Assembly (NCBI GenBank): GCA_016180645.1
Contig: JACPAV010000030.1
Location: 1 to 39,804, forward strand
Direction of reading: 5' to 3'
From: Nitrospirota bacterium
GTDB taxonomy: Bacteria > JACPQY01
DNA: 39,804 nt
Shown here: positions 24,208-27,614 of the stretch, piece by piece
How positions within the stretch are numbered: position 1 is the first letter of the stretch
How the letters are laid out: every line of letters begins with the position of its first letter
Translations under genes and position numbers: made by a program
Notes under the pieces: generated by a model
What the model was told of the DNA's origin: nothing
The model's input: the letters and a program-made list of their open reading frames with translations, nothing else
Database searches by the model: none

Positions 24208-24471
24208 TCAGAACGTCAGTCGATGCGATGGATCCAATCGTTCGCGAATCCACATCTTAATGATCGCTTGCCGGGAAACATTGAGTTTGACGGCCTCACG
24301 ATCAAGCAGGTCTACCATCCATGATGGGAAATCAACGTTGACTCTCTGAACGATGGTCGCACGCTTGAGATCCAAGAATCTCGAGATATCTTCGCCCCGG
24401 TCGAATTTTTCATCGAAGGCCGTGGCTTGGATTCTCCTGCTATTTTTCTTTCCCCTGGATGTGGCTTTCAT
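24208..24471 (-). CDS. brnA: BrnA-type antitoxin
   Basis: The 87-residue DNA-binding antitoxin has a basic N-terminus and a ribbon-helix-helix-like C-terminal half (ATIVQRVNVDFPSWMVDLLDREAVKLNVSRQAIIKMWIRERL). It binds and neutralises BrnT and normally represses its own operon. ATG 24471 lies inside the brnT 3' end (32-base overlap). The frame can be extended to 24528, but that part lies wholly within brnT. Confidence 0.85.
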   Translation of the reverse strand: MKATSRGKKNSRRIQATAFDEKFDRGEDISRFLDLKRATIVQRVNVDFPSWMVDLLDREAVKLNVSRQAIIKMWIRERLDPSHRLTF

Positions 24472-24724
24472 AGATTCTCTCCAATCGGCGATCTGCCCGG
24501 TGGCAGCTGATGAGCCTGATTGTTTCACCTTTCCGTGTGAAGACGGCGGCGTAACACTTGCCGCCGATCTTCGCCAGGATCAGGCAGCGGTTCTCGCCCG
24601 CGACGTTCTTGGCCGGGATGATGATGTGAGTAACATCCCATAGGCCTTGGGCCCATTCGAGATCGACTCCGTGGCGCTCTCGGTTGAGTTGGCTCTTTGC
24701 GGGATCAAATTCGAAGTGCTCCAT
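24440..24724 (-). CDS. brnT: BrnT-type ribonuclease toxin
   Basis: The 94-residue toxin shows the BrnT pattern: FEFDPAKSQLNRERHGVDLEWAQGLWD at the N-terminus, then GENRCLILAKIGGKCYAAVFTRKGETIRLISCHRADRRLERIY. BrnT is a RelE-like mRNA-cleaving toxin that is inhibited by BrnA. The His/Arg/Tyr residues at the C-terminus are present, so it looks active. It precedes and overlaps brnA, the usual order for this family. Confidence 0.88.
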   Translation of the reverse strand: MEHFEFDPAKSQLNRERHGVDLEWAQGLWDVTHIIIPAKNVAGENRCLILAKIGGKCYAAVFTRKGETIRLISCHRADRRLERIYESHIQGKEK

Positions 24725-24747: not shown

Positions 24748-24982
24748 CCGGGCAAAAGCCATGTGCGACTCGCGAATCACCCTCCCTCCGGAAAGCAGGA
24801 ATTGCCTCGTGTCGAGAGTTGAACTCCAAGCCGCCCGTGGTTCCACGTGCTTGGGCGTCGGAGTCAGTACGGTATGAACTATGCGCACTACCGGCGTCTG
24901 TTGGAGGTCTTTCCCCTGCCTCGTCCCTACATTGCGCGCCCTTCTCGGTGGCTTACGCGTCAGCCGGGTGACCTGCTTGGAA

Positions 24983-25053
24983 GAGCCGGATGCCGGAAAT
25001 CGGCCCGTCCGGATCTGTGAGGGTGAAATCGGGCAACCGATGAACTACTCGAC
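24983..25053 (+). mobile_element. Group II intron 3'-end remnant (domains V and VI)
   Basis: GAGCCGGATGCCGGAAATCG opens a 33-base segment (24983-25015) matching the catalytic domain V hairpin: GAGCCGGA pairs with TCCGGATC around an inner stem. Next comes a domain-VI-like hairpin (ATCGG-gcaa-CCGAT) and the ending CTACTCGAC (25045-25053), as at the 3' end of class C introns. No reverse-transcriptase frame is recognisable upstream, so this is a 5'-truncated remnant. It is oriented against the neighbouring minus-strand genes. Class C introns frequently insert at integron attC sites or terminators, and an attC-like box begins 50 bases downstream. Confidence 0.6.
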
Positions 25054-25102
25054 CAAGCCCCCTTGAGGGCACAGAGATCAAGCTGGTCCGCTCGATCGCC
25101 GG

Positions 25103-25109
25103 GTTAGAT
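25103..25109 (-). other. Possible attC R'' box of a second cassette
   Basis: On the minus strand ATCTAAC matches RYYYAAC and contains the stop codon of the HEPN-like gene, the usual position for the start of an attC. No convincing paired GTTRRRY box or attC stem follows. The site may be degenerate or disrupted by the intron remnant next to it. Confidence 0.3.
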
Positions 25110-25676
25110 CGGAACCCTTCCAGTCCACAAGTGCAGTGCATGAGGAAGCTGATGCTCCGGGGTACCGCGAAGTCGGCACAACTCGCGGACCATGCCCTCT
25201 GCCACCTCCAGTGCGTTGACGGCGTCAGCCAACGTTAGGGTGTCCACCACCGATGTGTCCGCGAGCCCCTGGATCACGACACCGGGTAGATTCAGGGTTT
25301 CGTGGGAGCTTGTAAAGTGCATCAGTGCGTTACGACGCTCCTTGAGAGCGAGAAAGGCTTTGGGCGTTGGCGCTGTGAAGTCTAAGCCCTTGCCGAGAAC
25401 ATCGGCAGGCCAGGTTCTCAGTTTGCGGTCGAGCGACCTTCTCCTGTCCAGATCGTCAAGGACGCGTTGCTTGTGCTGCATGAATCCTGGTTCACTGACA
25501 ACTACGCGAAAGAAGATGTTCAGGAACGCCTCGACGACCGTCACCGCCAGCATGATGCAGAGTGCAGCGTCCTGCTTCAGTTCCGTTCCGTCCCTACTGT
25601 GGTTGAGGCCTCCGACGAGGCGGCGGAGAGCGTCGAAGTACTGCCATATCATCCGGTTCGGCGAAGAGAGATTCAT
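25104..25676 (-). CDS. HEPN-like protein of unknown function
   Basis: The 190-residue, mainly helical protein has LALKERRNALMHFTSSHE at about 109-125, in which R115-N-A-L-M-H120 fits the R-x4-H motif of HEPN ribonucleases. A hydrophobic helix (CIMLAVTVVEAFLNIFFRVVV) lies upstream, as in HEPN proteins that sense infection or stress. I cannot place it in a named family. The gene starts 23 bases after the attC at 25699-25758 and stops inside an RYYYAAC box, which is the geometry of an integron cassette. No antitoxin partner is visible. Confidence 0.7.
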   Translation of the reverse strand: MNLSSPNRMIWQYFDALRRLVGGLNHSRDGTELKQDAALCIMLAVTVVEAFLNIFFRVVVSEPGFMQHKQRVLDDLDRRRSLDRKLRTWPADVLGKGLDFTAPTPKAFLALKERRNALMHFTSSHETLNLPGVVIQGLADTSVVDTLTLADAVNALEVAEGMVRELCRLRGTPEHQLPHALHLWTGRVPI

Positions 25677-25698
25677 TGGCCCGCGCTCATCATGTGCG

Positions 25699-25758
25699 AT
25701 CTAACGCCCAGCATCAGCTGCGGCGCGAAGCGCCGTCAGCTGCATGCTGTTGTTGGGC
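25699..25758 (-). other. Integron attC recombination site
   Basis: On the minus strand the 60-bp site begins with GCCCAAC (R'', 25758-25752) and ends with GTTAGAT (R', 25705-25699), which fit RYYYAAC and GTTRRRY. Between them CAGCAT-G-CAGCTG-A-CGGCGC pairs with GCGCCG-CAGCTG-ATGCTG around a TTCG loop. Two unpaired bases (G and A) sit on one arm, like the extrahelical bases that orient attC folding. The uracil-DNA-glycosylase-like gene reads into the site (its last 12-15 codons), as cassette genes often do. No integrase gene is in the window, so this is an attC without its integron platform. Confidence 0.85.
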
Positions 25759-26499
25759 AGCAGCCTCGGGCTTGCCGAGTATGGAGTAAAGCTGCGCAGC
25801 GAGGGACTCACGGTTTTCTGAAAAGAGCCGAACCCGATGTCCGTTTGCGCCGGACGGATGCGGAAAGCCTGAGAGCCACCGTCCAGCGCGAACTCGGTTC
25901 TCCACGGCGAGAAGCTGAAGAACCTCCTCGACCGATCTTCCGAGTGGAACGAGCACCGCGTTCGGTATTGATTCCAGCTCACTAGCAAGTATCTCACGGG
26001 CGAAGTCCATCAGAAACGGGGACTGGCTTGGTCGCGGGTTCGTTCCAGTGTAGTTGCGCGTGCCGACGAAGACGGGATACCGGAAGGCGGACGTGGTATG
26101 AAGGAGCGAGCGCGCAACTCCGAAGAGATCCGAGGAGGACTGGATGCTGAGGAGCCGCGGTAGATCGAGCGCGTCGAGCATGCGGGTGAGGTTCACTCGC
26201 ATCGAGCCAGCAAAACTGGCGCGAAGTTTTGCATGCCGACAGGCATCCTCTTCCGGGTTGCCCGCAGCAAGGGCATCCCGAACGGTTCGGCACGCGATCT
26301 CCATTTGCGTCCAACCCGGCGTGATTCCGAGGATGATCACCTTCGCTTCGGGGTTCTCCGAGTCGAAGGGACAGTAGAAGACACGAAGAGCCCCTTCCTT
26401 CGCGATCTGCAAGGCAGGGACAAGGAGATCGGTGTGATCGTACCGTTCCCGGGATGGAAGCGATGCGAGGAACGGGCCATACCTCTCAAAGAGCGACAT
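25714..26499 (-). CDS. Uracil-DNA glycosylase superfamily-like protein (integron cassette gene)
   Basis: The 261-residue product has two hallmark segments of the UDG fold: VIILGITPGWTQ (motif A, about 55-65) and SGFPHPSGANGHR (motif B with HPS, about 210-222). AVLVPLGRSVEEVLQLL is the central strand between them. An Asp or Asn at the catalytic position of motif A is not evident, so activity on uracil is uncertain; some members act on other bases or serve in defence. I prefer ATG 26499; the frame opens at 26520. GTTGGGC on the minus strand (26517-26511), 12 bases upstream, fits an attC R' box. The C-terminus is encoded by the attC. Confidence 0.65.
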   Translation of the reverse strand: MSLFERYGPFLASLPSRERYDHTDLLVPALQIAKEGALRVFYCPFDSENPEAKVIILGITPGWTQMEIACRTVRDALAAGNPEEDACRHAKLRASFAGSMRVNLTRMLDALDLPRLLSIQSSSDLFGVARSLLHTTSAFRYPVFVGTRNYTGTNPRPSQSPFLMDFAREILASELESIPNAVLVPLGRSVEEVLQLLAVENRVRAGRWLSGFPHPSGANGHRVRLFSENRESLAAQLYSILGKPEAAAQQQHAADGASRRS

Positions 26500-26523
26500 G
26501 GTTCCCGGCTGCCCAACCACTGA

Positions 26524-26802
26524 TCAACTTGCCATTTTGCCCTGATAATTCAATATTGGAGTGGTTTTCGGGGTTCTTCGGTCTCCGATGGAGGGGATTC
26601 TCAGTCCTTTTCTGAGACGAACCAGAATCCAACCTTCCAAAACGTCTATGAGATTCCGGCGGCATTCTTCCAAGGAGCGACCGGTTGCCCACACTCCCTT
26701 CACGCCTCTGATCTCGCCGTAATAGGGATCGCGGCCACGAATGCGCTCATACCGCGCGCGTTTGAGGGCCGCTTCAACGTACTCGCCGATCATGGCGCCC
26801 AT
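26524..26802 (-). CDS. Orphan HicB-family antitoxin
   Basis: The 92-residue protein matches short HicB antitoxins: GEYVEAALKRARYERIRGRDPYYGEIRGVKGVWATGRSLEECRRNLIDVLEGWILVRLRKGLRIP. These have an RNase-H-like fold that masks HicA. No hicA lies on either side on this strand, so it is an orphan or has another target. ATG 26802 follows AGGTGA by four bases. The last 20 residues are unlike the family and may be read-through into cassette-junction sequence. Confidence 0.82.
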   Translation of the reverse strand: MGAMIGEYVEAALKRARYERIRGRDPYYGEIRGVKGVWATGRSLEECRRNLIDVLEGWILVRLRKGLRIPSIGDRRTPKTTPILNYQGKMAS

Positions 26803-26911
26803 GCTATCACCTGTTTCTTCCCGTTTCACCCTCAGCCTGATAGCGAGTGTGGGCTAGGTGGAGGACGGGATCACTTCCGCGGATGTGGGTGTCCTGCCCG
26901 AGGCACCCTGG

Positions 26912-27085: not shown

Positions 27086-27349
27086 TCACGCGGCCATTTT
27101 CAGAAGCACCTCGTTGATGACCGTTTGATAGCCAACGCCCCGGCGCTCCGCCTCTTGCTTGGCCCATACAGCGACCCGGGGATGAAGACGAATGGAAATG
27201 GGCAGATATTTGTCTCCATTCTTGGGCGGGCGGCCGCGACTCCTACGCTTGACGCCAAGCTTATGTTCGATGGCTTTGTGGGCGGCTCGCACCTCCTTGT
27301 CCGTAATGCGTCTGGCCGACTCAAACGGGAATTCCCTAAGTTTCTTCAT
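27086..27349 (-). CDS. brnA: BrnA-type antitoxin (second copy)
   Basis: The 87-residue antitoxin has a long basic linker (KRRSRGRPPKNGDKYL) followed by ISIRLHPRVAVWAKQEAERRGVGYQTVINEVLLKMA, the ribbon-helix-helix region of BrnA/CopG proteins. It would neutralise the upstream BrnT and repress the shared promoter. ATG 27349 overlaps the brnT end by 14 bases. It is too different from the brnA at 24208-24471 to be a recent duplicate. Confidence 0.87.
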   Translation of the reverse strand: MKKLREFPFESARRITDKEVRAAHKAIEHKLGVKRRSRGRPPKNGDKYLPISIRLHPRVAVWAKQEAERRGVGYQTVINEVLLKMAA

Positions 27350-27614
27350 AGCGTCTTCTCTCCTTTCGAATTGCCTTTCGAGCGCTGATGATCCGATAGA
27401 CATTTCCAAGCTGAATCACCGTGAATACCACGACGACGATACTGCTGTCCGATTGGCCGATGAGCCACTCTCGAACTTCCGCCGGAGTAGAATGCCCCGG
27501 GTCCGGTGCAATCAAGGCATATGGATCATCGAACGCCGTGATCGCTTTCTCAAAACTCAGCCCATGCTTCGCGAAATTGCCGGCTGCCTTCTCCGGGTCC
27601 CACTCAAACCTCAT
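27336..27614 (-). CDS. brnT: BrnT-type ribonuclease toxin (second copy)
   Basis: The 92-residue RelE-like toxin begins FEWDPEKAAGNFAKHGLSFEKAITAFDDP and ends NVYRIISARKAIRKERRRYEE, matching BrnT throughout, including the final Arg-rich RRRYE segment that carries catalytic residues. It overlaps brnA. The predicted transcript begins at the ATG itself, so translation is probably leaderless. Confidence 0.9.
   Translation of the reverse strand: MRFEWDPEKAAGNFAKHGLSFEKAITAFDDPYALIAPDPGHSTPAEVREWLIGQSDSSIVVVVFTVIQLGNVYRIISARKAIRKERRRYEET

Follow-up and report, generated by a model that had tools for sequence, protein, structure and literature searches.

How did an attC site come to lie in a stretch of bacterial DNA that has no integron integrase gene (intI)? 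The window, the whole stretch of DNA that was analysed, comprises 39,804 nucleotides of a Nitrospirota bacterium contig. A first-pass annotation had singled out one attC in it as isolated and had proposed that it belongs either to an intI-less cluster of attC sites or to the edge of a larger array. This proposal is supported by the score of the attC, by evidence that the cassettes are mobile and by the failure to detect intI. The site is not isolated, however: it is followed by another cassette, the attC of which is broken, and the first cassette has an attI-like site before it. The features are listed in Table 1.

Table 1. Integron-like features and their neighbours, in coordinates of the window
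Feature	Position	Strand	Remarks
5'-truncated group II intron, 3' end	24881..25053	+	IEP C-terminal remnant (~24881-24975), domains 5-6 (24981-25053)
Cassette 2 attC remnant	25054..25109	-	R'' and left arm ATCTAACCCGGCGATCGAGCGGAC...; right arm missing
Gene cassette 2, 3' truncated	25054..25704	-	begins at R' GTTAGAT
190-aa ORF, gene of cassette 2	25104..25676	-	ATG 23 nt past attC
attC of cassette 1 (60 bp)	25699..25758	-	R1 59.1 bits; hairpin with two extrahelical bases
Gene cassette 1 (812 bp)	25705..26516	-	first TT of core GTTGGGC to G of R' GTTAGAT
UDG-superfamily protein, 261 aa	25714..26499	-	Pfam PF03167; ATG 26499
attI-like site	26511..26557	-	core: TTATCAGGGCAAAATGGCAAGTTGATCAGTG followed directly by GTTGGGC; homologous copies at nonhomologous loci
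HicB-like (UPF0150) ORF	26524..26829	-	PF21748 96.9 bits, residues 16-79

The minus strand of the attC reads GCCCAACAACAGCATGCAGCTGACGGCGCTTCGCGCCGCAGCTGATGCTGGGCGTTAGAT. Its boxes, R'' GCCCAAC (25758-25752) and R' GTTAGAT (25705-25699), are both read on the minus strand, fit RYYYAAC and GTTRRRY as the first-pass annotation had stated, and flank an imperfect palindrome. The bottom strand of the site, which is the recombinogenic one and corresponds to the plus strand, folds into a single hairpin of -36.5 kcal/mol. The extrahelical bases are the two single-base bulges on one arm of the stem that had been described earlier (T25736 and C25743), and close to the base of the hairpin a small spacer is left unpaired. 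The adjacent minus-strand gene does read into the site, with its stop codon (25716-25714) within the L' side, so that the attC encodes the last residues of the UDG-superfamily protein; the distance of 23 bases to the next minus-strand gene was also given correctly (ATG at 25676).

The site was scored with R1, a covariance model trained on 10 class 1 integron attC sites from plasmids of Pseudomonas, Klebsiella, Enterobacter, Escherichia and Raoultella, with the window site excluded. This was the kind of check that had been recommended, and it puts the site far above the background: 59.1 bits (E = 2.7e-13 in the window with filters off, E = 3.1e-11 in the whole 4.7-Mb genome), the runner-up in the window having 11.2 bits with filters off. 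True attC sites held out from training score between 21.7 and 75.6 bits, and the window attC thus falls inside the range of class 1 resistance cassettes. A second model, R2, the training set of which contains the window attC, gives it 75.6 bits. The identity of the attC is therefore confirmed at the level of sequence, and the site is proposed to be one that IntI would recognise.

In an excised circular cassette, the R'' box of the attC has its complement in the first bases of that cassette. The sequence GTTGGGC, the exact complement of the R'' box, is found at 26517-26511, 18 nt before the ATG of the UDG-superfamily gene. This is its only occurrence within 4 kb upstream of the attC; it is 759 nt away, and the exact match over such a distance, which is seen directly, sets the limits of cassette 1. 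The unit comprises what is expected of an integron gene cassette: a complementary 5' core, one gene and an attC at the 3' end. That the hairpin is a chance palindrome or an intrinsic terminator, as its strength and its position after most of the UDG gene might suggest, is refuted by the model scores, the two R boxes, the extrahelical bases and the exact core complementarity 759 nt away, and has a vanishingly small probability.

The version of the cassette 1 gene in the list of open reading frames codes for 268 aa and starts at GTG 26520, which is outside the cassette boundary. The PF03167 match of the protein is barely above the cut-off (25.1 bits compared to 24.3), and its GITPG- and HPSGAN-like motifs are kept in the homologues. 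A single-sequence query of the genome contigs gave no match, and an alignment query was needed to find homologues there. One of them, 46% identical and from a deltaproteobacterial MAG (L069), is itself a cassette, with the cores GATATGC/GCATATC and its own attC of 36.8 bits; an attC-like arm, recognised by eye, precedes it. This supports mobility of the cassettes, for which the first-pass annotation had suggested a search in other genomes. So does the Mrr-like cassette gene of this genome (contig C4), which has a 60%-identical relative that is a cassette beside intI in another genome, G001. The closest homologue of the UDG-superfamily protein (65% identity) belongs to a Bacteroidota MAG (L058:3300-5245), where a CRISPR-like repeat array comes after the gene.

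Cassette 2 begins at the R' box of the first attC. The use of GTTAGAT as its first core, together with the exact complement ATCTAAC (25109-25103) that overlaps the stop codon of the 190-aa ORF, identifies it as a second cassette. Its attC appears to be broken, as judged on one box and one arm, and no complete attC was recognised at the end of the cassette even with filters off. The 190-aa protein has no match in Pfam, NCBIfam or PADLOC, and a search of 40 other genomes, of plasmids and of viral contigs gave no relatives of it.

The attC remnant is abutted, ~50 nt from R'', by the 3' end of a group II intron remnant (RF00029, 52 bits; gathering threshold 40), which lies on the strand opposite to the cassettes. 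The intron remnant is 90% identical over 132 alignment columns to a fragment in the sister genome G001 and both stop at the same CTACTCGAC, which places the 3' end of the intron at 25053. A Bradyrhizobium intron with ltrA matches it in domains 5-6. A 5' end at GTGCGAC 24762, which would have made this an ORF-less intron, was dropped because the alignment with G001 covers the 3' part only. Truncated introns opposite to cassettes, as well as BrnTA modules, are known in intI-less arrays (PMC7923331). The intron in the window resembles these group IIC-attC introns in being 5'-truncated, in having BrnTA nearby and in its orientation (intron on the plus strand, cassettes on the minus strand), but it differs in its position, which is not the usual one between TTGT and T adjoining R''. 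The reference intron in the aadA2 attC (L014) sits between TTGT and TAGAC. Assignment to the typical group IIC-attC introns was rejected on account of this position.

On its other side, 0.75 kb upstream of the attC, cassette 1 adjoins the attI-like site. The 31 nt before the core in the window are identical at 26-29 positions (84-94%) to those of each other strong copy. Weaker similarity extends past the site to about 26572 (CCCGAAAACC), and the left part, beyond ~26557, is poorly conserved. The 100 nt before the copies are unrelated in most pairs, with ~20-40% identity at most; the exceptions are two copies on contig C7, with a long flank in common (88%), and the copies in genome G363 and in phage contigs, which share 53%. 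On the flank of the attI-like site where one would look for intI lies the HicB-like ORF. The stop codon of this ORF (26526-26524) is inside the site, and its C-terminal tail is encoded by attI-like sequence.

There are five strong copies in this genome: those in the window, on C9, on C7 (two) and on C4. TTATCAGGGCAAAATGGCAAGTTGATCAGTG of the window is identical to the other four at 26-28 of 31 nt, and a control search with the reversed pattern gave 0 matches in this genome. The cassette next to one of the C7 copies has an exact core/R'' match (GTTAGGG/CCCTAAC), and that of the C9 copy has a match with one mismatch. A sixth copy (C15:104410, 24.3 bits) is decayed and has no obvious cassette. 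The positions at C4:9564 and C14 are similar, but neither was significant or reported with model R3, and their assignment as attI is only tentative. At C4:6760-9564 two attCs enclose a type II methyltransferase and an ORF for its probable partner endonuclease; they are preceded by an Mrr-like restriction gene, the whole being a small restriction array without intI. At C7:83105-87914 the two attI-like copies, which have the longer shared flank, are 3.6 kb apart. Between them are a 170-aa ORF, an ORF resembling XamI-type restriction enzymes (by eye) and a methyltransferase-like ORF, and two attCs come after the second copy.

Among the 386 genomes searched, the motif was found outside this genome in G363 only, which is of another lineage and has two copies; none was found in the PLSDB plasmids or the INPHARED phages. 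A G363 copy shares 28 of 31 nt with the window. A frame-broken, divergent intI is located ~120 nt from it (tblastn, down to 3e-11), and the cassette that follows has the core GTTAGAC, an exactly matching R'' GTCTAAC and an attC of 48.3 bits. Conservation of the attI-like site over loci and lineages is thus seen directly. Because the G363 copy has the layout intI-attI-cassette-attC, the repeat before cassette 1 is, by homology of sequence, most probably an attI.

Two phage contigs of IMG/VR (L163 and L164) contain the exact motif. They are 98.7% identical to just past the attI-like site, where they continue into different DNA methyltransferase-like genes (by eye). One has an attC downstream (L163:8001-8089), and no intI was found in the available stretch of either contig. 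The two (L163:6876-9400, L164:3883-5260) rejoin after the differing genes, and the locus looks like a natural site of cassette swapping. The contig with the attC has a second attC-like site, which is reversed and lies beside a transposase-like ORF. The upstream half of the attI-like site (L163:6895-6914) contains the palindrome CGGGCAAAACTGCCCG followed by AAAAC, a part of which is repeated as GGGCAAAATGGC near the core. These repeats are possibly direct repeats bound by the integrase or an operator for a repressor.

As the first-pass annotation had indicated, no integron integrase was detected. The genome, a 65-contig draft that is 97% complete, has no match to TIGR02249 above the cut-off of 265; the best match (81.9 bits, 308 aa) was rejected as a general recombinase of the phage-integrase family. 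No remnant of intI was detected beside the fetched strong attI copies of this genome (tblastn, E ≤ 0.05). Since the genome is a draft in 65 contigs, intI may be in an unassembled part. Of the components of a complete integron, the window has a probable attI, by homology to the G363 site, and lacks intI. The only genome of the same family, G001, encodes two intact IntI (394 and 391 bits; cut-off 265). The attCs beside them are very like the window attC, the attI sequence of G001 differs from that of the window, and a further locus (C83) has intI fragments. In the G001 integrases (C78 and C31), which are 431 and 436 aa long, an N-terminal extension adds ~100 residues ahead of the region that matches TIGR02249.

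The window is thus best read as an attI-like site followed by a complete UDG cassette and a further one in which the attC is broken, intI having been lost or never present (probability about 0.85). In the proposed mechanism IntI would recognise the hairpin that the bottom strand of the attC forms, with its two extrahelical bases, and would insert each cassette between the G and the TT of the attI core. With insertion at this point, the R-box of the attI would now read GTTGGGC, the cassette's own end. We infer that IntI acted here in the past, that the attC would still work in trans, and that intI has been lost or acted from elsewhere.

It might be argued that there is no attI, and that free cassettes were inserted by an integrase in trans at an ordinary secondary site of the chromosome beside hicB, known as attG, giving a SALIN. 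Insertion at attG has been documented (Loot et al. 2024 as cited in PMC12901181 and PMC12444791), the fetched flanks contain neither intI nor a remnant of it, and other cassettes lie amid housekeeping genes, for example on C4 near lepA/lepB-like ORFs (by eye). However, 26-30 of 31 nt are common to the strong insertion points and to the attI beside the decayed intI, so that the targets are not unrelated, and the shared site of 31-47 nt largely refutes this explanation. PMC12444791 presents attG sites as consensus recombination sequences, neither attC nor attI, over many loci, and it does not describe them as sharing a long sequence; plain attG insertion is therefore improbable.

If the attI-like site is accepted, the absence of intI may be explained by movement of attI and cassette as an intI-less unit, carried by a phage or another element, with an integrase in trans swapping the cassettes. 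The near-identical phage contigs with different genes behind the attI and no intI in the available stretch point in this direction, as do the five strong dispersed copies in this genome and the Shewanella prophage in which a CALIN begins with an attI (PMC9892861). On the other hand, no carrier element was identified around the copies of this genome, no right-hand end could be defined, and the phages may themselves have lost intI. This explanation is possible, but doubtful. Its specific form, a non-autonomous integron in which an attI of ~50-80 nt with 1-2 cassettes is carried or copied, also by phages, without intI and exchanges its cassettes in trans, is rather unlikely.

Alternatively, several complete integrons may each have lost intI separately, the window being one relic with its attI and 1-2 cassettes. 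This has not far from an even chance. G001 has at least two intact integrons as well as the C83 locus, where intI fragments accompany the same kind of attI, and in G363 an intI is decaying at such a site. Nevertheless, no intI fragment (tblastn, E ≤ 0.05) lies by the fetched strong copies of this genome, a result to be read with the fact that similarity ends just upstream of the attI in most pairs; complete loss so often is possible, but demanding.

Several of these elements are already known: attC sites, cassettes, CALINs, truncated introns in arrays, and one attI-bearing CALIN (PMC9892861). By default IntegronFinder requires two attC sites for a CALIN, and cases with a single attC can be true (IntegronFinder 2, PMC9024848). 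The window, with one intact attC, one remnant and no intI, resembles CALINs (PMC9024848) in having attC cassettes without a nearby intI, further small attC groups being present on C4 and C7, but differs from them in having one intact attC and an attI-like site. In the CALIN of Shewanella prophage M16-3 (PMC9892861) an attI likewise starts a cassette array without its own intI. That attI has another sequence, however, and the same prophage contains a complete integron, whereas the window's genome has several dispersed attI copies and no detected intI. The dispersed chromosomal CALINs of Xanthomonas (PMC12444791) are similar in being small intI-less arrays at several loci, and are interpreted as relics of ancestral activity of integrons; the integron locus is retained in the majority of those genomes, and a shared attI-like site is not mentioned in the available part of that paper. 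A narrow literature search gave no description of a genome with several dispersed attI copies that lack intI; this is weak evidence. Such copies, common to phage contigs and an unrelated lineage, thus appear to be new.

Searches for integrons target intI and attC clusters; by default they discard single attCs, and they have no models for attI sites other than those of the known classes. Should attI copies with 1-2 cassettes but no intI be common, a part of the CALINs and secondary-site insertions may represent a dispersed docking site, which phages may ferry. The shared 47-nt motif offers a search handle that replaces intI and could help to distinguish relics of dead integrons from a mobile unit. 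Several of the cassettes encode restriction, methylation or DNA-repair-like proteins, which fits a role in defence.

The cassette region lies between two BrnT/BrnA toxin-antitoxin pairs (24208-24724 and 27086-27614). They were rejected as cassettes, as attC is absent nearby even with filters off. BrnT genes are also situated beside attCs at C8 of this genome and in the sister genome G001 (C78).
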